Shown here: positions 9,285 to 23,145 of the stretch, piece by piece
Position numbering within the stretch: the first letter of the stretch is position 1
How the letters are laid out: every line of letters begins with the position of its first letter
Source: Pseudonocardia sp. EC080619-01
GTDB lineage: Bacteria > Actinomycetota > Actinomycetes > Mycobacteriales > Pseudonocardiaceae
Reading direction: 5' to 3'
Assembly: GCF_001420995.1 (NCBI RefSeq)
Contig: NZ_CP012184.1
Location: 4,200,501 to 4,264,500 of the forward strand
Length of the DNA: 64,000 bases
Notes under the pieces: model-generated
The model's database searches: none
Told to the model about the DNA's origin: nothing
What the model saw: only the letters and a program-made list of their open reading frames with translations
Program-made: the position numbers and the translations under genes

Positions 9285-10052
9285 TCAGTACGCGCCGCCG
9301 CCGCGCAGGACGGCGCCGACGGTGCGGAAGAGGATCTGCAGGTCGAACAGCGGGGACCAGCGGTCGACGTATTCGGCGTCGAGGCGGATCGACTCGTCCC
9401 AGCTCAGGTCGCTGCGGCCGGAGACCTGCCAGAGGCCGGTGAGGCCCGGCTTCACCGAGAGCCGGCGGCGGGCGACGGCGCAGTACTGCTCGACCTCCCG
9501 GCGGAGCGCCGGGCGCGGCCCGACCAGGGCCATCGTGCCGCCGACGACGTTGAACAGCTGGGGCAGCTCGTCGAGGGAGAAGGTGCGGATGATCCGGCCG
9601 ACCGGAGTGATCCGCGGGTCGTGCGCCATCTTGAACAGGGGGCCGGCGCCCTCGTTGCTCGCGGCCAGGGCGGCGAGGCGGGCCTCGGCGTCGACACACA
9701 TCGAGCGGAACTTGAGCATCCGGAAGTCCTGGCCGTCACGGCCGACGCGGGTCTGCCGGAAGAGGACCGGGCCTCCGTCGAGCCTGACCGCGAGGGCGAC
9801 CGCCAGCATGACCGGCGCCAGCAGCACGATCAGCACCAGCGCGGCGACCGCGTTGAGGACCGCGTACCCGGTGCCTGCACGCCGGACCGCACGCGCGTCG
9901 TCCGCGGCGACGGTCTCCACCTGGACGCGCCCCTCGGCCTCGACGACGGTCGAGACGGCGTCGGCGACGACGGCGGCGGCAGCGGCGGTGGCGCGAACGG
10001 CCTCGTCCACCGGGCCGGATGCCGTAGACGTCGTGCGCTGGGGAGCGGTCAT
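9285..10052 (-). CDS. Short polyprenyl-phosphate sugar-1-phosphate transferase
   Basis: This 255-residue phosphoglycosyl transferase of the monotopic bacterial sugar transferase family (PF02397) starts lipid-linked oligosaccharide assembly by moving a sugar-1-phosphate from its nucleotide to undecaprenyl phosphate. An N-terminal cytoplasmic tail of about 60 residues is followed by one hydrophobic segment (residues about 66-90). The catalytic core has FRMLKFRSM, DPRITPVGRIIR, SLDELPQL (Asp-Glu dyad), LVGPRP and LTGLWQVSGRSDLSWDE. It lacks the four-helix and CoA-binding-like N-terminal domains found in the 497-residue paralogue at 18127-19620, to which its core is very similar. It is divergent from the tyrosine phosphatase gene. 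Confidence 0.88.
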   Translation of the reverse strand: MTAPQRTTSTASGPVDEAVRATAAAAAVVADAVSTVVEAEGRVQVETVAADDARAVRRAGTGYAVLNAVAALVLIVLLAPVMLAVALAVRLDGGPVLFRQTRVGRDGQDFRMLKFRSMCVDAEARLAALAASNEGAGPLFKMAHDPRITPVGRIIRTFSLDELPQLFNVVGGTMALVGPRPALRREVEQYCAVARRRLSVKPGLTGLWQVSGRSDLSWDESIRLDAEYVDRWSPLFDLQILFRTVGAVLRGGGAY

Positions 10053-10113
10053 GTCCTCTTCGTCGACGCCGCCGAACGGCCCATTAACGGGGCCGCGGGC
10101 GGATCGCCAAACC

Positions 10114-10148
10114 TGATGATCGGCCCGCCCCGGCCGGTTCGATCATCA
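10114..10148. promoter_or_regulatory. Inverted repeat between sugar transferase and phosphatase genes
   Basis: TGATGATCG (10114-10122) and CGATCATCA (10140-10148) form a perfect 9-base inverted repeat with a 17-base, GC-rich spacer. It lies in the 193-base divergent region, about 62 bases before the sugar transferase start and 98 before the phosphatase start. It could be a two-site operator or a hairpin. Confidence 0.4.
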
Positions 10149-10245
10149 ACATTGGGGATGTGACGCGGTCGAGGCCGTTCGGCGGAAATGACGGCGCCTC
10201 CCGGTGCGACTGAACGGACGAGAGTCCGTGGTCGGGGAGGTTCGT

Positions 10246-10956
10246 GTGACGTCGTTGGTGGAGCGTGCGGTGCCGCAGCAGCGGGTGCAGCCGGTGCACG
10301 TCCCGGACCGGGCCGGGGTGCAGGCCCGCGGGCCACGCCACGCCCGCCGGCCGGGACCGGACGACCGGTTCCGCGTGCTCGTCGTCTGCACGGGCAACAT
10401 CTGCCGGTCCCCGGCCGGTGAGCTGCTGATGCGCCACCTGCTCGTCGGGCGTCTGGGCGGTCGTGCGGCCGGCCGCGTCGAGGTGTCGAGCGCCGGTGTC
10501 CGCGCCGTCGTCGGGCACGGGATGCACCCGCTGTCCCGGGCGCAGCTGGCGCCGTGGGGACTGGACTCCCGGGCGGACGGGTTCGTCGCGCGGCAGCTGG
10601 ACGACGCCGTCGTCGACGGGGTGGATCTCGTCCTGGGTGCGAACGTCCGGCACCGCTCGGCCGTGCTGGAGCGTCACCCGGAGCTGCTGGACCGGACGTT
10701 CGCGCTGCGGGAGTTCGCCCGGCTCTCCGCCGCGGTGGACGCCGCGTCGCTCCCGTCCGACCTGGTCGGGCGCGGCCGGGCACTGGTCGAGGCCGCCCGT
10801 GCGCTGCGGGGCACCGTCCCGCCGGCGGACGACACCGTCCCGGACCCGATGGGGGAGCCGGAGCAGGCGCACCGCGACGCCGTCGGGCTGATCTTCGGGG
10901 CGATGCACGGGATCGTGGACGTCCTCGCGCCGCGGCAGCGGGTCGCCACCGGCTGA
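10246..10956 (+). CDS. Low-molecular-weight protein tyrosine phosphatase
   Basis: This 236-residue protein carries the LMW-PTP P-loop VVCTGNICRSPAGE (C-X5-R-S) after an N-terminal extension of about 45 residues. The late DPMGEP motif supplies the general-acid Asp. Wzb-like members of this family dephosphorylate bacterial tyrosine kinases that control polysaccharide export. It is longer than the usual 150-190 residues, through the N-terminal tail and a mid-protein extension. The GTG at 10246 is chosen for the ggggagg site 5 bases upstream (10234-10240). It is divergent from a priming sugar transferase, which supports a role in exopolysaccharide control. No intact tyrosine kinase is visible in the window. 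Confidence 0.87.
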   Translation: MTSLVERAVPQQRVQPVHVPDRAGVQARGPRHARRPGPDDRFRVLVVCTGNICRSPAGELLMRHLLVGRLGGRAAGRVEVSSAGVRAVVGHGMHPLSRAQLAPWGLDSRADGFVARQLDDAVVDGVDLVLGANVRHRSAVLERHPELLDRTFALREFARLSAAVDAASLPSDLVGRGRALVEAARALRGTVPPADDTVPDPMGEPEQAHRDAVGLIFGAMHGIVDVLAPRQRVATG

Positions 10957-14813: not shown

Positions 14814-15653
14814 ATGCGTGACGTGCCGCCGACCTCGCCGTCCATCGACCAGAGCGTGCCGAGCATCGCGCGGTGTTACGACTTCGCCCTCGGGGGCAAG
14901 GACAACTACGACGTCGACCGGTCCGCCGTGGCCGCGGTCGAGAAGCTCGTCCCGCAGGGCGGGGCGCTGGCCAGGGTGAACCGTGCCTGGCACATCCGGG
15001 CGACCCGGTTCCTGGCGACGCAGACCGGCGTCACGCAGTACCTCGACCTGGGCGCCGGCCTGCCCACCGTGGAGAACACCCACGAGGTCGTGCAGGCGAT
15101 CGACGAGAGCGCGCGCGTGGTCTACGTCGACAACGACCCGTCGGCCGTCGCGTACGGGCGGGCACTGCTCGACGACGCCTCCACGGTCCGCTACGTCGAG
15201 GGCGACCTCACGCGGCCGGCGGACGTCCTCGGCGACCCGACGGTCAGCACCCACCTGGACCTGTCCGAGCCGGTCGCGCTCTACCAGAGCGCCACGCTGC
15301 ACCACCAGACCGACGACGTCGACCTGCCCGGGATCATGGGCGCCTACGTCGACGCGCTCGCGCCGGGCTCGTTCGTCGTGCTGAGCCACTTCTGGGACCC
15401 GGGCGGCGAGGACGGGGCGCAGGTGCGCCGGATCCGGGACATCATGCTGGCCCAGGGGCTCGACGGGGAGCACTTCCGCAGCCTCGACGAGATCCGGGCC
15501 ATGCTGCCGGGGCTCGACATCCTCCCCGGGAACCCGGGGGACACCGACGGGCTGATCCCGCTGCTGGACTGGTGGCCGGACGGGCCGGCCACCGACGGCG
15601 CCGTCGACCCGGTGCTGCGATGCATCGTCGGGGCGGTCGGGCGCAAGCCCTGA
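14814..15653 (+). CDS. S-adenosyl-methionine-dependent methyltransferase, PF04672 (SAV2177-like)
   Basis: This 279-residue protein belongs to the actinobacterial S-adenosyl methyltransferase family. The N-terminal signature PSIARCYDFALGGKDNYDVDR, the glycine-rich SAM site QYLDLGAGLPTVENTHEV, the acidic strand VVYVDNDP and SHFWDPGG are all in place. The family is widespread in actinomycetes, usually in many paralogues, and its substrates are mostly unknown. It stands alone between the aldo/keto reductase and the secreted repeat gene. Nothing in the sequence reveals the substrate. Confidence 0.9.
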   Translation: MRDVPPTSPSIDQSVPSIARCYDFALGGKDNYDVDRSAVAAVEKLVPQGGALARVNRAWHIRATRFLATQTGVTQYLDLGAGLPTVENTHEVVQAIDESARVVYVDNDPSAVAYGRALLDDASTVRYVEGDLTRPADVLGDPTVSTHLDLSEPVALYQSATLHHQTDDVDLPGIMGAYVDALAPGSFVVLSHFWDPGGEDGAQVRRIRDIMLAQGLDGEHFRSLDEIRAMLPGLDILPGNPGDTDGLIPLLDWWPDGPATDGAVDPVLRCIVGAVGRKP

Positions 15654-15922
15654 CCCAGGCCGCCGCCGCGCCTCAGCCGAACGGCTGGACCTTCTCCACC
15701 CGCGGACGGACGCGGCGCCATGTCGATGTCCGACCGTCCGTCGATGTGCCGGACCGGTCCGTACGTGCAGGGTCATGGTCGTGAACGAACAGGCGGACGG
15801 GTCGCGGCGCACCGCCGGACGGCCGGATGTCTGTGCAGCGCAAGGTGTCGCGCCGGTCGCCGTGGTGGAGGTCCTCCGCTACGTTGCGCCGTGCACGCCT
15901 GCCGACCAGTGAGAGGATCTGT

Positions 15923-16315
15923 ATGTCGATCGCGCGTTCCGTCGCCCGGGTCGTCGTCCCTGCGATGAGTGCCGTCGCGGTGGCCGGCGCCATGATCGCC
16001 GGGCCGGGAGTCGCCCTCGCCGAGTCCCCGGTCCCGCCGGGGAGCCCGGGCGACAGCAACGGCAACGGGATCCTGGACTCCAGCGAGCAGCCCGACAACC
16101 CGGACCTGCTGCCGGAGCGGCCGGGTTCGCCGGTCCTGCCCGGGAGCCCGGGGGACACCAACGGCAACGGGCTGCTGGACTCCAGCGAGCGCCCGGACAA
16201 CCCCGACGCGCAGCCGGAGCGGCTCGGCTCGCCGGTCGAGCCCGGGAGCCCGGGGGACACCAACGGGAACGGGCTGCTCGACTCGAGCGAGCGCCCGGAC
16301 AACCCCGACCTCTGA
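15923..16315 (+). CDS. Small secreted protein with three 34-residue calcium-loop repeats
   Basis: This 130-residue protein has a signal peptide (residues 1-33, ending near GVALAES). After it come three near-identical repeats of about 34 residues built on PGSPGDTNGNGLLDSSERPD. The GDxNGNGxLDSSE core has the spacing of Ca-binding loops in dockerin, thrombospondin type 3 and EF-hand-like repeats (D-x-N-x-N-G-x-x-D-x-x-E). The third repeat ends the protein. The ATG at 15923 follows gagagga (15911-15917). A 62-residue paralogue with one loop follows in tandem. Cell-surface or matrix calcium binding is the natural guess; no function is known to me. Confidence 0.82.
   Translation: MSIARSVARVVVPAMSAVAVAGAMIAGPGVALAESPVPPGSPGDSNGNGILDSSEQPDNPDLLPERPGSPVLPGSPGDTNGNGLLDSSERPDNPDAQPERLGSPVEPGSPGDTNGNGLLDSSERPDNPDL
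16035..16311 (+). repeat. 102-base in-frame tandem repeat (2.7 copies)
   Basis: Three copies of a roughly 102-base unit start near 16027, 16129 and 16231 within the secreted-protein gene, the last without its spacer. Copies two and three are almost identical in bases (cccgggagcccgggggacac at 16140 and 16241), which points to recent duplication. Copy number could vary between strains. Confidence 0.75.
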
Positions 16316-16319
16316 GGGT

Positions 16320-16363
16320 CGACGACGCGCCCCGGACCGGTCCGCCGGTCCGGGGCGTCGTCG
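16320..16363 (+). terminator. Strong hairpin after the repeat gene
   Basis: Arms 16320-16340 and 16345-16363 (ccggtccggggcgtcgtcg on the right) form a stem of about 19 pairs with a 2-base bulge and a TCCG loop. It lies immediately after the stop at 16315. There is no long T run, which is usual in high-GC actinobacteria. Confidence 0.7.
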
Positions 16364-16579
16364 TGTGTTCTGCGGATCGGCCGTCCGGCTGGTCCGGGCT
16401 CGTTCTTCGGGAGGAGGACGACGGGCCGGATATCGATCCGTACGGCGATGTGCGGGGCCGGGTGGCGCGGGCACGGTGATGGTCGTGGACGCACAGGCAG
16501 CCGGGTCGCTCCAGGGATTCCCGACGTCCGTCCGCTCCGCCGAGCCGTGCACGATTCCCGATCAGGAGAGAGGGCCAGC

Positions 16580-16768
16580 ATGTCGATCTCGCGTTCCGTC
16601 ACCCGGACCGTCGTTCCCGCGATGAGCGCCGTGGCGGTGGTGGGGGCCATGATCGCCGGACCGGCCGTGGCGAACGCCGCGACGCCGGTCCCGCCGGGAG
16701 GTCCCGGCGACGTCGACGGCAACGGGATCCCCGACCCGGGCGAGCGACCGGACACCCCCGACCTCTGA
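16580..16768 (+). CDS. Small secreted protein with one calcium-loop motif (tandem paralogue)
   Basis: This 62-residue precursor is paralogous to the 15923 gene. The signal peptide MSISRSVTRTVVPAMSAVAV differs at few positions, and the mature part holds a single GDVDGNGIPDPGERPDTPD loop. After signal cleavage only about 28 residues remain. It is preceded by a gagagag site. The upstream region also matches that of the first gene (tgatggtcgtggacgcacag near 16477 against tcatggtcgtgaacgaacag near 15773), so the duplication included the control region. Confidence 0.75.
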   Translation: MSISRSVTRTVVPAMSAVAVVGAMIAGPAVANAATPVPPGGPGDVDGNGIPDPGERPDTPDL

Positions 16769-16843
16769 GATCGACTTTCCGCTGGTCGCACCCTTGTGGC
16801 CGGTCGTCGACGACTCCACCGTTCGAATTGATGTTCGGATACT

Positions 16844-18133
16844 GTGGACCTCGTGGACGACGCCTGGACGCACACCGACGAGGAGCTGCTGCTCACCGTC
16901 GGCTCGCTCCAGCGCGCGATCGACGAGGCGTCCGCGGCGCTGGTCCCGCTCGTCGCGGAGGTCGCGTCGCGCGGCCTGGCCGAGGCCCAGGGGTACCGCG
17001 ACGTCGCGCACCTCCTGCGGTCGGTGCAGAACGTGTCGCTGCGGACGGGGCGGGCGCGGGTCCGCGCCGCCGAGCAGCTCGCGCCGACCGTGCTGATCAC
17101 CGGGCAGCAGGTCGATCCGCGGCTGCCCGCGCTGGCGGCGGCCTTCGGGCGGGCGGAGGTGTCCGCCGAGCACGTGGACGTGATCCAGCGGGTGCTGGCG
17201 GCGCTGCCGCCGCACCTCGACGAGCACCGCGCGCCGCTCGAGGCCGATCTCGTCGAGCACGCGCGGGGACTGGACCCCGACGGCGTCGAGAAGCTCGGCA
17301 GGCGCGCACTCGCCCTGCTCGATCCCGACGGCCCCCGGCCGCGCGAGCCGCACCCGACCCGCAACCGGCTGACCCTCCGGCCGCAGGGGAGCGGGTTCGC
17401 GGCGCGTGGCTGGTTCGACACGGAGTCCGCGGCCGTGCTGCGGACCGCACTGTCACCGCTGAGCGCGCCGGTCCCGCCGGTCGAGGCCGGGTGCGACGAC
17501 GCGGGCGAGCCGATCGGGCGCGACGAGCGCTCGGCCGCCGAGCGCAACGGCGACGGCCTGGTCGAGCTCGCCCGGATGACGATCGCGACCGGCGCGCTCG
17601 GCTCGGAGCGCGGGCAGGAGGTGCGGGTGACCGTCACCGTGCCGCTGGAGGCGCTGACCACCGGCCGCGGGGCCGCGCAGCTCGGGTTCGGCGACGGGCT
17701 CCTCACCGGAGCGGTCGACGCGGGCGCCGCGCTGCGGCTCGCCTGCGACGCGGAGGTCGTCCCGGTCGTGCTCGGCACGCACGGGGAGCCGCTGTTCGTC
17801 GGGCGGGGGAACCGGCTCGCGAACCGGGGCCAGCGCCGGGCGCTCGCCCAGCGCGACGGGGGATGCGCCTTCCCCGGTTGCGACCGGCCGCCGCAGTGGT
17901 GCTCCGCGCACCACGTCGAGCACTGGGCCGACGGCGGTCCGACCGATCTGGACAATCTGGTGCTCTTGTGCGGGCACCACCACTCGATGATCCACAAGGG
18001 CGACTGGACGGTCACGATGGACGGTGGGTTCCCGCTGTTCCATCCGCCGCCGTGGGTGGCGGGTGGATCGCGACGGAACCCGGTGCACCGGGCGGAGCTG
18101 GTCGGGAGGGTGGCGGAGCTGTGTCCTCAGTAG
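16844..18133 (+). CDS. DUF222/HNH endonuclease family protein (13E12-like)
   Basis: This 429-residue protein has an N-terminal DUF222 domain (residues about 10-250) and a C-terminal HNH nuclease domain. The HNH part shows CAFPGCDRPPQWCSAHHVEH followed by WADGGPTDLDNLVLLCGHHH, with two CxxC-like metal sites and the catalytic His pair. The family is abundant in actinobacteria, often in many dispersed copies, as with the mycobacterial 13E12 repeats. The GTG at 16844 starts it; a ttcgaatt motif lies 15 bases upstream. Its 3' end overlaps the convergent sugar transferase by 7 bases. Function in the cell is unknown. Confidence 0.88.
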   Translation: MDLVDDAWTHTDEELLLTVGSLQRAIDEASAALVPLVAEVASRGLAEAQGYRDVAHLLRSVQNVSLRTGRARVRAAEQLAPTVLITGQQVDPRLPALAAAFGRAEVSAEHVDVIQRVLAALPPHLDEHRAPLEADLVEHARGLDPDGVEKLGRRALALLDPDGPRPREPHPTRNRLTLRPQGSGFAARGWFDTESAAVLRTALSPLSAPVPPVEAGCDDAGEPIGRDERSAAERNGDGLVELARMTIATGALGSERGQEVRVTVTVPLEALTTGRGAAQLGFGDGLLTGAVDAGAALRLACDAEVVPVVLGTHGEPLFVGRGNRLANRGQRRALAQRDGGCAFPGCDRPPQWCSAHHVEHWADGGPTDLDNLVLLCGHHHSMIHKGDWTVTMDGGFPLFHPPPWVAGGSRRNPVHRAELVGRVAELCPQ

Positions 18134-19620
18134 GCGCCGCGGCCGCGCAGCACCGCGCCGAACGTCTTCCAGACGATCAGCAGGTCCAGCGCCACCGACC
18201 AGTTCTCCACGTAGCGCAGGTCGAGCCGGACCGACTCCTCCCAGGTGAGCGAGCTGCGGCCGCTGACCTGCCACAGACCCGTCATGCCGGGACGGACCAG
18301 CAGGCGGCGGCGGGCGTCGTCGGCGTAGGCGGCGACCTCGCGCGGCAGCGGCGGGCGCGGGCCGACCAGGCTCATCGAGCCGTTCAGCACGTTCAGCAGC
18401 TGCGGCAGCTCGTCGAGCGAGTACTTCCGCAGGAGGGCGCCCACGGGTGTGACGCGCGGGTCGCGGCGCATCTTGAACAGCGGGCCGGCGCCGTCGTTCT
18501 GCCGGGCCAGGTCGGTCAGCCGGGCCTCGGCGTCGGTGACCATGGAGCGGAACTTGACCATCCGGAAGGTCCGGCCGTGGGTGCCCACCCGTTCCTGCGT
18601 GAAGAACACCGGACCGCGGTCGTGCAGCTTCACCAGCAGCGCGACCGTGAGGAACACCGGGGCGACGAGCAGCAGGATCAGCCCGGCCGCGACCTTGTCC
18701 GTCGTGTGCTTGACCGCCTTCGCGATCCCGGAGAACCGCGGCTCGGACAGCCGCAGCAGAGGCAGCCCGTCGACCGGGCTGATGTGCATCCGCGGGCCGG
18801 CGATCTCCATCAGGCCCGGGTCGACGGCCAGCTCCGTCCGGCTGCCCTCCAGGTCCCAGGCGAGCCGGTGCAGCCGGGCCGGGCCCCAGCCGGGCGCCCG
18901 GCAGACGGCGACGACGCCGTGCTCCCCGGTCGTGGCCAGCGCGGGCACCGAGTCCAGGTCGCCCACCACCGGGGCGCCCTCGACGTCGTGACCGCCGCCG
19001 GTCCCGGTACCGGTCGGCGTGCAGACGCCGGTGACGCGCCAGCCGAAGTACGGGTCCCGCCGGGTGCGGCGGATCAGGTCGGAGACGGCGTCGTCCGAGC
19101 CGACGGCGAGCACCGGCAGCAGTCCGCGGCCGCGTCCGCGCTGGTGGTGCAGGCACTTGCGCAGCACGAACCGGGACGCGAGCAGCGCCACCCCGGTGAG
19201 GGGGACGAGCAGGAAGACCCACTCCCGCGACGACTGCACCATCATCGACAGCCCGCCGAGGGCGAGGACCACGTCGGCCAGGACCACCGCGCGTCCCAGC
19301 CGGACGAACTCGGCCGAGCCCTGGCCGAGCACCCGGCCGTCCCACGCGCGGCAGACCGGCAGGGCCACCGCGAGCAGGCCCGCGGCGATCACCCCGCTCC
19401 ACAGCCGGGCGCGGTCGGCCGCGTCGAGGCCGGTGAGCCCGGCGAGCACGCTGAGTGTGACCGTCAGGGCGATCACCGCCAGGTCGCCGGACGCGACGGC
19501 GAGCGAGAACCGGCGCTGCCACCGCGGGGCGCCCGGCAGCACGGACGGGCGGCGCCGCTGCTGCGGCACCGTGATCCGGGTGACCCCGGGCCCGTGGGAG
19601 ACGTCCGGAATCGCGCTCAC
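18127..19620 (-). CDS. Polyprenyl-phosphate glycosyl-1-phosphate transferase (full length)
   Basis: This 497-residue WbaP/CpsE-type priming enzyme has four N-terminal membrane segments (residues about 38-165), a nucleotide-binding-like middle domain and a C-terminal catalytic sugar transferase domain after a fifth hydrophobic helix. Core motifs are FRMVKFRSM, DPRVTPVGALLRKYSLDELPQL, LVGPRPPLPREV, MTGLWQVSGRSSLTWEE and the end FGAVLRGRGAY. It begins synthesis of a lipid-linked repeat unit. Its core is very close to the short enzyme at 9285-10052. The ATG at 19620 is the only good start. No dedicated operon partner lies next to it. Confidence 0.92.
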   Translation of the reverse strand: MSAIPDVSHGPGVTRITVPQQRRRPSVLPGAPRWQRRFSLAVASGDLAVIALTVTLSVLAGLTGLDAADRARLWSGVIAAGLLAVALPVCRAWDGRVLGQGSAEFVRLGRAVVLADVVLALGGLSMMVQSSREWVFLLVPLTGVALLASRFVLRKCLHHQRGRGRGLLPVLAVGSDDAVSDLIRRTRRDPYFGWRVTGVCTPTGTGTGGGHDVEGAPVVGDLDSVPALATTGEHGVVAVCRAPGWGPARLHRLAWDLEGSRTELAVDPGLMEIAGPRMHISPVDGLPLLRLSEPRFSGIAKAVKHTTDKVAAGLILLLVAPVFLTVALLVKLHDRGPVFFTQERVGTHGRTFRMVKFRSMVTDAEARLTDLARQNDGAGPLFKMRRDPRVTPVGALLRKYSLDELPQLLNVLNGSMSLVGPRPPLPREVAAYADDARRRLLVRPGMTGLWQVSGRSSLTWEESVRLDLRYVENWSVALDLLIVWKTFGAVLRGRGAY

Positions 19621-20391: not shown

Positions 20392-21674
20392 TGCTGATCC
20401 TCGACACCGCGCTCGCCCGCCGTGCCGCCGAGAACCGGCCGATCCGGGTCGGGCTGGTCGGCGCCGGGTTCATGGGCCGTGGCCTGGTCAACCAGATCGT
20501 CAACTCGACGCCCGGGATGGACGTCGTCGCGATCGCCAACCGGACCGTGCCGACCGCCGTCCGCGCCTACACCGAGGCCGGGCTGGAGCCGGTGGAGGTC
20601 TCGACGACCGCGCAGGTCGAGGCCGCGGTCGCGGCCGGGACCCCGGCGGTGCTGGGCGACGCGTTCGCGCTGCTCGCCGCGGAGAACATCGACGTGCTCG
20701 TCGACGTCACCGGCGCGGTCGAGTTCGGCGCGCACGTCACCGTCGCCGCCATCGAGCGCGGACTCCCGGTCGTCACCATGAACGCGGAGCTCGACGGCAC
20801 CGTCGGGCCGCTCCTCGCGCACCGGGCGCGGGCCGCCGGCGTCGTCCTGACCGGGGCCGACGGCGACCAGCCGGGCGTCCAGGGGAACCTGCTGCGGTTC
20901 GTGAAGGGCATCGGCGTCACGCCGCTCGTCGCGGGCAACATCAAGGGCCTGCAGGACGAGTACCGCACCCCGACCACGCAGCAGGCGTTCGCCGAGAAGT
21001 GGGGCCAGGACCCCTACATGGTCACCAGCTTCGCCGACGGCACCAAGGTGTCGTTCGAGCAGGCGATCGTCGCGAACGCGCACGGCTTCACCGTCGGGCA
21101 GCGCGGGATGTACGGCCGCGACCACGCCGGCCACGTCGACGAGCTGACGCAGGTCTACGACGTCGACGAGCTGCGCGAGCTGGGTGGCGTCGTCGACTAC
21201 GTGGTCGGCGCCAAGCCGGGCCCGGGCATCTACGTCCTCGGCACGCACGACGACCCGAAGCAGCGGCACTACCTGAACCTGTACAAGCTGGGCGAGGGCC
21301 CGCTGTACAGCTTCTACACGCCCTACCACCTGTGCCACTTCGAGGTCCCGAACACGATCGTGCGGGCGGTGGACTTCGCGGACGCCGCGCTGGCACCGAC
21401 CGGTGGGCAGCGGGTCGACGTCGTCGCCACCGCCAAGCAGGACCTGAAGGCCGGGCACACCGTCGACGGGCTGGGTGGCTACGACACCTACGGCGTCGCG
21501 GAGTCCTCGCCGGTGACGCGGTCGGAGCGGCTGCTGCCGATGGGCGTCGCCGAGGGGTGCGTGCTCACCCGGGACGTCGCAAAGGACGCGGTGCTCACCT
21601 ACGACGACGTGACGCTGCCGCCGGGGCGGTTGATCGACTCGTTGCGGGAGGAGCAGGAGAAGCTCTTCTCCTGA
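20391..21674 (+). CDS. NAD(P)-dependent oxidoreductase with SAF domain (DRL-like family)
   Basis: This 427-residue protein has an N-terminal Rossmann domain (VGLVGAGFMGRGLVNQI), a middle catalytic domain and a C-terminal SAF domain (MGVAEGCVLTRDVAKDAV). The architecture is that of homoserine-dehydrogenase-like proteins related to DRL, the DXR-like reductoisomerase described from Brucella; members are also often labelled FlgA-like because of SAF. Whether this one is a DXR substitute or a sugar enzyme cannot be told, but its coupling to an RmlC-like epimerase favours a sugar-nucleotide or branched-sugar step. Its 3' end overlaps a convergent gene by 80 bases. Confidence 0.8.
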   Translation: MLILDTALARRAAENRPIRVGLVGAGFMGRGLVNQIVNSTPGMDVVAIANRTVPTAVRAYTEAGLEPVEVSTTAQVEAAVAAGTPAVLGDAFALLAAENIDVLVDVTGAVEFGAHVTVAAIERGLPVVTMNAELDGTVGPLLAHRARAAGVVLTGADGDQPGVQGNLLRFVKGIGVTPLVAGNIKGLQDEYRTPTTQQAFAEKWGQDPYMVTSFADGTKVSFEQAIVANAHGFTVGQRGMYGRDHAGHVDELTQVYDVDELRELGGVVDYVVGAKPGPGIYVLGTHDDPKQRHYLNLYKLGEGPLYSFYTPYHLCHFEVPNTIVRAVDFADAALAPTGGQRVDVVATAKQDLKAGHTVDGLGGYDTYGVAESSPVTRSERLLPMGVAEGCVLTRDVAKDAVLTYDDVTLPPGRLIDSLREEQEKLFS

Positions 21675-23145
21675 GTGCACGGTCGGTGGGTCCCCGGCCC
21701 GGCGCCGGGGACCTGACCAGCCGTCCCAGGGTCCTGGCGATGATCGTCATGTCGCCGCGGACCGACCAGGAGCGGACGTAGCCGAGCTCGAGATCGAGCT
21801 TCGCCGGCAGCAGCTCGCCGAGGTAGTAGGCCTCGACGTCGTCCGGCCGGGCCCGTTCGATGAAGACCTGTTCGTCGCCGAAGTCGAGGTAGGCGACACT
21901 CGTCATGCCGGGGCGCACGGACCAGACGGCTCGTTGCCGCTCGGTGTAGGACCGCGCGTACCGCGGATCCTCCGGGCGCGGCCCGACGATGCTCATGTCG
22001 CCGCGCAGCACGTTGAGGACCTGCGGGAGCTCGTTGAGCTTCGTCGAGCGCAGGACGCGCCCGACCGGCGTGATCCGGGGGTCGCCCTCCCTCGTCACCC
22101 GTGGCCCCGAGTCGCCCGGCCGCATCGTGGCGAACTTGAACATGGTGAACCGGCGTCCGTGCAGCCCGACCCGTTGCGCACGGTAGAACACCTCGCTCCC
22201 GCTGACCGTCAGGACCACGGCGACCGTCAGCAGGACCGGCAGGACGAGTGGCAGCGCGACCACACAGAGCAGGACGTCCAGTGCGCGTTTGGCCGCTGCC
22301 CTGCACCGGTGGCGGAGCCCGGGGCCGCGGTGCCCCGGGACGTCGTGCGACCGGTCGGGCAGGTCGGCCGGGGCGAGCGAACGGACCAGCTCGGCGAGTG
22401 GCGGGACGACGAGGACGGACAGGCCTGCCGCGTCGGCGTCCGCGGAGACGGCCTGCACCGCGGTGTCGTCGGAGGTGGCCACGACCAGGAGATCGGCGCC
22501 GTAGCGCTCGGCCAGTGCCGTGGCGCCCTCACCCGAGCGAGCGGTGCCGAGGCCGGCGATCCGACGCCGCGTCCCGTCCCCACCGAGCGTGGCGACGGGG
22601 AGGATTCCCCAGCTCGAGTCGCGCAGCATCGACCGCACGAGGTAGTCGGCGTCGTCCCCGGATCCCACCACCACGGCTCGGCGCGTCCGGCGCGGATCGG
22701 TGGGATCGGGACGGTCGATCCGCGCGTGCAGCGCCGCCCTCGCCCCCACGAGTAGCAACGCCGCGATCGGGATCGCGATCAACGGTGTCGAGCGTGGCAC
22801 GGGGGGTGGGTCCTGCAGCACCGTCAGGGCGAACACCACGAGACCGACCGCGAACACCGAGAGGATCAGCCTGCCGCCGTCGCCGGCGGCGGCGCGCCCG
22901 GCCGTGTACGACCTGCGGCAGACACCGACCAGCACCTGCACGCCGGCGGCCACCACCGACATCCACAGCAGACCCGAGAGGTCGATCTCCGCCAGCGCCA
23001 GCTCGTAGCGGAGGAGCACCGCGACCACGAGCGCCGCGCACCACCCGATCACGTCCGTGGCGACCGCCACCCCGACGTAGGCACGATCACCGGCGACGCC
23101 CCGGCGGGCGGGCGCGAGCGGTCCGATCAGGAGCTCGTTCGACAT
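21595..23145 (-). CDS. Polyprenyl-phosphate glycosyl-1-phosphate transferase (third copy)
   Basis: This 516-residue priming transferase has N-terminal membrane helices (residues about 22-135), a CoA-binding-like middle domain (VVVGSGDDADYLVRSML) and a C-terminal sugar transferase core. The core differs clearly from the other two: FTMFKFATMRPGD, DPRITPVGRVLRSTKLNELPQVL, DMSIVGPRPEDPRY and VRPGMTSVAYLDFGDEQVF, which may reflect another sugar. The last 30 or so residues are low-complexity (Ala/Pro/Arg/Ser) and are encoded antisense to the end of the DRL-like gene. The ATG at 23145 faces an A/T-rich divergent region before the nucleotidyltransferase trio. Confidence 0.9.
   Translation of the reverse strand: MSNELLIGPLAPARRGVAGDRAYVGVAVATDVIGWCAALVVAVLLRYELALAEIDLSGLLWMSVVAAGVQVLVGVCRRSYTAGRAAAGDGGRLILSVFAVGLVVFALTVLQDPPPVPRSTPLIAIPIAALLLVGARAALHARIDRPDPTDPRRTRRAVVVGSGDDADYLVRSMLRDSSWGILPVATLGGDGTRRRIAGLGTARSGEGATALAERYGADLLVVATSDDTAVQAVSADADAAGLSVLVVPPLAELVRSLAPADLPDRSHDVPGHRGPGLRHRCRAAAKRALDVLLCVVALPLVLPVLLTVAVVLTVSGSEVFYRAQRVGLHGRRFTMFKFATMRPGDSGPRVTREGDPRITPVGRVLRSTKLNELPQVLNVLRGDMSIVGPRPEDPRYARSYTERQRAVWSVRPGMTSVAYLDFGDEQVFIERARPDDVEAYYLGELLPAKLDLELGYVRSWSVRGDMTIIARTLGRLVRSPAPGRGPTDRALRRRASPAPPATSRSTAPAAASRRRR

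Follow-up and report, generated by a model that had tools for sequence, protein, structure and literature searches.

What do two very short neighbouring genes encode when each offers little more than a signal peptide and one or a few calcium-type loops, and do the loops matter to the proteins that carry them? The question is raised by a tandem pair in a 64,000-nucleotide stretch of the Pseudonocardia sp. EC080619-01 genome (hereafter the window), described in a first-pass annotation as secreted mini-proteins with D-x-N-G-N-G loops, three in one and one in the other. That description holds: both genes are real, and their coordinates in the window are exact. The features are as follows.

15923..16315, + strand: gene A, exported mini-protein of 130 aa with three EF-like loop units at a 34-aa period; homologues in 4 further Pseudonocardia genomes
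15923..16021, + strand: predicted Sec-type signal peptide of gene A, 33 aa, ending ALA/ES
16028..16310, + strand: 102-bp tandem array in gene A (TRF, 2.8 copies, 88% matches), coding for the three loop units
16052..16087, + strand: gene A loop 1, DSNGNGILDSSE, ligand-pattern match
16154..16189, + strand: gene A loop 2, DTNGNGLLDSSE, ligand-pattern match
16256..16291, + strand: gene A loop 3, DTNGNGLLDSSE, ligand-pattern match
16315..16371, + strand: hairpin 3' of gene A (fold -44.1 kcal/mol, z -5.4), a likely transcription terminator separating gene A from gene B
16580..16768, + strand: gene B, exported mini-protein of 62 aa with one loop; predicted signal end ANA/AT
16709..16744, + strand: gene B loop, DVDGNGIPDPGE, with Pro at loop position 8 as a departure from the EF-hand pattern

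Both precursors appear to begin with a signal peptide, as previously proposed, whose A-x-A end stands just before [E/A][S/T]PVPPG and is followed by loops of the form GDxNxNGxxDxxE-x-PDNPD, three in gene A and one in gene B. In all six Pseudonocardia precursors (6/6) a basic n-region and a hydrophobic core lead up to an A-x-A that immediately precedes [EAD][TS]PVPPG, and export by way of a cleavable signal peptide is well supported from these sequence signals. Cut at the A-x-A site, the mature products would have 97 and 29 residues, the former as first estimated and the latter in place of the 28 given before. Within the window, such loops are confined to the pair: a strict pattern of the ligands, D.[DN].[DN]G..D..E, has 4 matches in all six frames of the whole window, every one of them inside genes A and B, against a chance expectation of mean 0.02 and maximum 1 in simulated sequence of the window's dinucleotide composition.

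The unit GD(T/V)(N/D)GNG(L/I)xD proposed earlier captures the loop but stops short of the full conserved unit, which also includes DSSExPDNPD and has the consensus PGSPGDxNxNGxLDSSExPDNPD. Nor are the gene A repeats nearly identical in DNA, as had been stated; their pairwise identity is 81-90%, with differences that are mostly synonymous, and this synonymous divergence indicates that they are not recent copies. Measured on 19-residue units, pN/pS stands at 0.07 within genes and 0.18 between them, which shows that it is the protein itself that is conserved. Comparisons that involve gene B give a pN/pS of 0.47, and in its product the loop shows changes to D3, P8, P10 and G11, while the tail has T for N; gene B is therefore a diverging paralogue, whose product may bind Ca2+ weakly or not at all.

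Across the family, the 12-residue EF-hand loop pattern (PROSITE PS00018) fits 25 of the 26 loops in 10 proteins, the gene B loop failing at position 8. D1, N/D3, N5, G6, D9 and E12 are kept. A hydrophobic residue at position 13, directly after E12, occurs in 0/26 loops and a Pro at position 14, two residues past E12, in 26/26; the loops are therefore helix-less and EF-like. An AlphaFold model, of low confidence and built on a shallow alignment, likewise has no helix (mean pLDDT 58, slightly higher over the loops). Mature Pseudonocardia chains have net charges of -5 to -29 and low hydrophobicity; the products of genes A and B are acidic, Pro/Gly-rich and probably disordered.

Precursor-profile searches found nine true carriers among 390 Pseudonocardiaceae genomes: five Pseudonocardia (of 62 in the genus), two members of genus g36 (the Saccharopolyspora group) and two of genus g37. 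Four further borderline rows of the family search have no such unit where inspected, and weak matches elsewhere in this genome and in the genus lack the loop. Profile searches gave no further carrier in 399 genomes of the order, 395 of the class and 396 of the phylum, samples that overlap and for which the initial pass scored a restricted set of candidates; viral contigs and plasmid and phage collections held no family member. Contigs that match the family include those of P. parietis, Pseudonocardia sp. KRD291 and a MAG. The repeat does have relatives but is rare (9/390 genomes of the bacterial family), and placing it "in actinobacteria" at large was too broad. An rpoB tree covering 30 genomes, from which G007, G012, G017 and G044 were disregarded as evidently in the wrong frame (about 44% identity), places the five Pseudonocardia carriers in one clade with support 1.0, together with six sampled non-carriers; this fits acquisition in that clade and subsequent losses or transfers. 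In Pfam and NCBIfam scans neither P0001 nor P0002 reached the cut-off of any known family, and a small number of keyword searches of the open-licence literature found no paper describing the present one. Judged by sequence, the units appear to be a small, unnamed family of exported EF-loop repeats that, among the genomes sampled, only few relatives carry.

The units are displayed in three architectures: Sec-exported mini-proteins with 1-6 loops, lipoproteins, and the C-terminus of DUF4232 proteins. In g36 they follow a short lipoprotein start, MRKALITG..LSGAAC, in which LSGAAC is lipobox-like. In g37, a DUF4232 protein (PF14016, E 3e-7) carries one or two units close to its C-terminal end:

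L077 (G372) and L078 (G373), about 9850-10590: DUF4232 proteins with units

The occurrence of mini-protein, lipoprotein and DUF4232 forms indicates that the loop module is portable and always rides on proteins with export signals; for the soluble forms, a location at the surface is presumed.

Copy number varies throughout. The Pseudonocardia genomes have 3+1 (this genome), 2 (G026), 6 (G031), 3 (G041) and 1 (G054) loops, and the two g36 lipoproteins have two units in G366 (corresponding to Saccharopolyspora sp. HNM0986) and five in G367. As the genes around these last two are 95-100% identical in protein, even very closely related genomes differ in their number of units. A compact 18-residue unit, DVNGNGVLDSSETPDNPD, is present in G031 and G041 without the PGSPGD part; in G031 (L064, about 9609-10301) it forms four tandem copies after two long units, and three of the four are identical across 54 bp, a sign of recent duplication there. 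The suggestion of a recently expanding family is thus sound in kind, the family both expanding and contracting, with the exception of the gene A repeats to which it was applied.

Upstream of the pair, alignment and a genus-wide pattern search point to a shared 37-bp element.

15742..15778, + strand (G000:C1:4216242-4216278): conserved 37-bp element upstream of gene A, a candidate promoter or regulatory site
16446..16482, + strand (G000:C1:4216946-4216982): conserved 37-bp element upstream of gene B

The element aligns among Pseudonocardia family genes and begins about 115-180 bp 5' of the start codon. With up to 2 mismatches, its pattern occurs 5 times in 62 Pseudonocardia genomes, each time preceding a family gene; since the pattern was derived from these genes, their recovery is by construction, and the informative part is its absence everywhere else. 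A reversed control has no occurrence in the 62 genomes, and the G031 copy is too diverged for a pattern match. Small reading frames upstream of family genes are not conserved in amino acids (as judged by eye from the alignment), and Rfam gave sub-threshold matches only. Given the common signal peptide and upstream element, and the strong hairpin between them, genes A and B look like duplicated, separately transcribed units.

Directly 5' of gene A lies a Methyltransf_19 gene (window 14814-15653, +) and directly 3' of gene B a DUF222 plus HNH endonuclease gene (window 16844-18133, +), neither of which accompanies the family elsewhere as a conserved neighbour. One stretch contains three bacterial sugar transferases (PF02397) (window 9285-10052, 18127-19620 and 21595-23145, -), with a low-molecular-weight phosphatase gene nearby (10204-10956); together these probably represent an exopolysaccharide cluster around the pair. 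The carriers have no gene neighbours in common: comparison of the five Pseudonocardia sites gave no conserved neighbour hinting at a pathway, and the regions flanking the pair have no synteny with the sites of its homologues in relatives. The polysaccharide genes are therefore local context only.

How does the unit compare with known calcium-binding repeats? TSP3_bac (PF18884) places D-x-D/N-x-D/N-G loops in short repeats arranged in tandem on exported proteins, and dockerin (PF00404) brings EF-like calcium loops to exported proteins in units duplicated at the C-terminus; neither profile has a match at any family locus at E 10, and dockerin has flanking helices whereas the family units do not. 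The EF-hand (PF00036, PF13202, PF13405 and the PROSITE loop pattern) shares the 12-residue calcium loop with ligands at 1, 3, 5, 9 and 12 and G6, but the family units have no hydrophobic residue after E12 and no predicted flanking helices. Pfam EF-hand scores stay below cut-off throughout, at best 23.5 bits against 25.9 (G031) and 9.6 against 25.4 for P0001. DUF7151 (PF23657) includes a loop DxNxNGxLD; P0001 scores 26.4 bits where the cut-off is 27.2, and the six-loop G031 protein scores 28.3 bits, in an alignment limited to the loop (profile positions 27-39 of 46) that leaves the rest of the domain unmatched. Sequence relatives in the PDB, the engineered Z-Ca (6fgo) and diacylglycerol kinase alpha (6iie), match weakly and solely via their EF-hand calcium loops. 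Excalibur and Excalibur-like motifs (DxDxDGxxCE) offer an extracellular bacterial, helix-independent EF-like loop, and Excalibur-like, EF-loop-like sequences have been reported to bind calcium at about 100 uM when they occur in disordered proteins (PMC8391695). Excalibur is, however, a ten-residue motif with a Cys, whereas no family unit has a Cys and the spacing to E12 is 12 residues; no Pfam Excalibur match is among those listed at E 10. By the tests made, the family falls outside EF-hand, TSP3_bac, dockerin, Excalibur and DUF7151; by analogy, its unit may work like a helix-less EF or Excalibur-like motif. Lanthanide binding was also considered, lanmodulin having EF loops, and the position-2 Pro reported for lanmodulin is absent from the family loops. 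A multi-core RiPP precursor was rejected on account of ordinary Sec and lipoprotein signals and the absence of a modifying enzyme nearby.

We consider the best explanation, with a probability of roughly 0.6, to be that the family proteins are acidic, probably disordered modules that bind calcium at the envelope after export. Each exported unit would take up a single Ca2+ with modest affinity and become locally compact, and the protein would bind or bridge calcium within the cell envelope or close to it; the number of units, changing by tandem duplication, would set the capacity. Beyond the ligands, the conservation of DSSE and PDNPD suggests a second contact, and as S10-S11 and the PDNPD tail are conserved beyond the needs of calcium, another selected function such as partner docking may exist. 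On a rival reading, the unit would be a docking tag: calcium would give the loop its shape, and a partner protein or wall polymer would recognise DSSExPDNPD, as in dockerin-cohesin, with repeats giving avidity. Near-invariance of S10, S11, P14, D15, N16, P17 and D18 in three genera and three architectures fits such a tag, as do units that reach the C-terminus, or end a few residues short of it, in every family protein; yet no partner gene is conserved nearby, the dockerin profile finds nothing at the loci, and the compact repeats of G031 and G041 dispense with the PGSPGD part. We regard docking as possible though unlikely. Its more specific form, a lineage-specific, portable Pseudonocardiaceae surface module that joins a helix-less EF loop to the docking tail for Ca-dependent attachment to a wall receptor, tuned by copy number, on a dockerin-like principle with an unrelated tag, is more doubtful still.

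The remaining alternatives fare worse. Selection merely for an acidic, Pro-rich chain would make these proteins non-specific polyanions with their loop geometry unused, and the strong negative charge and low hydrophobicity would suit this; ligand spacing and identity are nevertheless kept while synonymous sites change (pN/pS 0.07-0.18), which renders it improbable. We would give slightly less credence to the idea that these are bioactive peptides secreted as bacteriocin-like agents or signals, in which the loop serves a structural purpose: the 29-residue mature products of gene B and G054 and the patchy presence inside one clade are what one might expect of them, but the chains are very acidic and hydrophilic, the family includes lipoproteins and DUF4232 fusions, the surroundings show no conserved gene for immunity, transport or modification, and bacteriocin profile matches fall in the signal region, far under cut-off. 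That the region is a GC-rich repeat with chance open frames can hardly be entertained. An antisense frame of 780 codons (window 15673-18015, -) is indeed open across genes A and B and the HNH gene, but as the selection pattern sits on the + strand it is a high-GC artefact; furthermore, homologues at unrelated sites keep the coding frame, their changes are biased towards synonymous ones, and they have signal peptides and purine-rich sequences resembling ribosome-binding sites.

The family defined here thus comes in three displays (soluble, lipoprotein and DUF4232-fused) and in natural variants of 1-6 loops, the smallest being a mature protein of 29 residues with a single loop. Its loop-number variants offer a convenient natural series for the calcium affinity of an EF loop without helices, and the family should be useful for asking what role extracellular calcium binding has in these actinobacteria. 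If the tail were indeed a docking tag, it would represent a new calcium-dependent attachment system.
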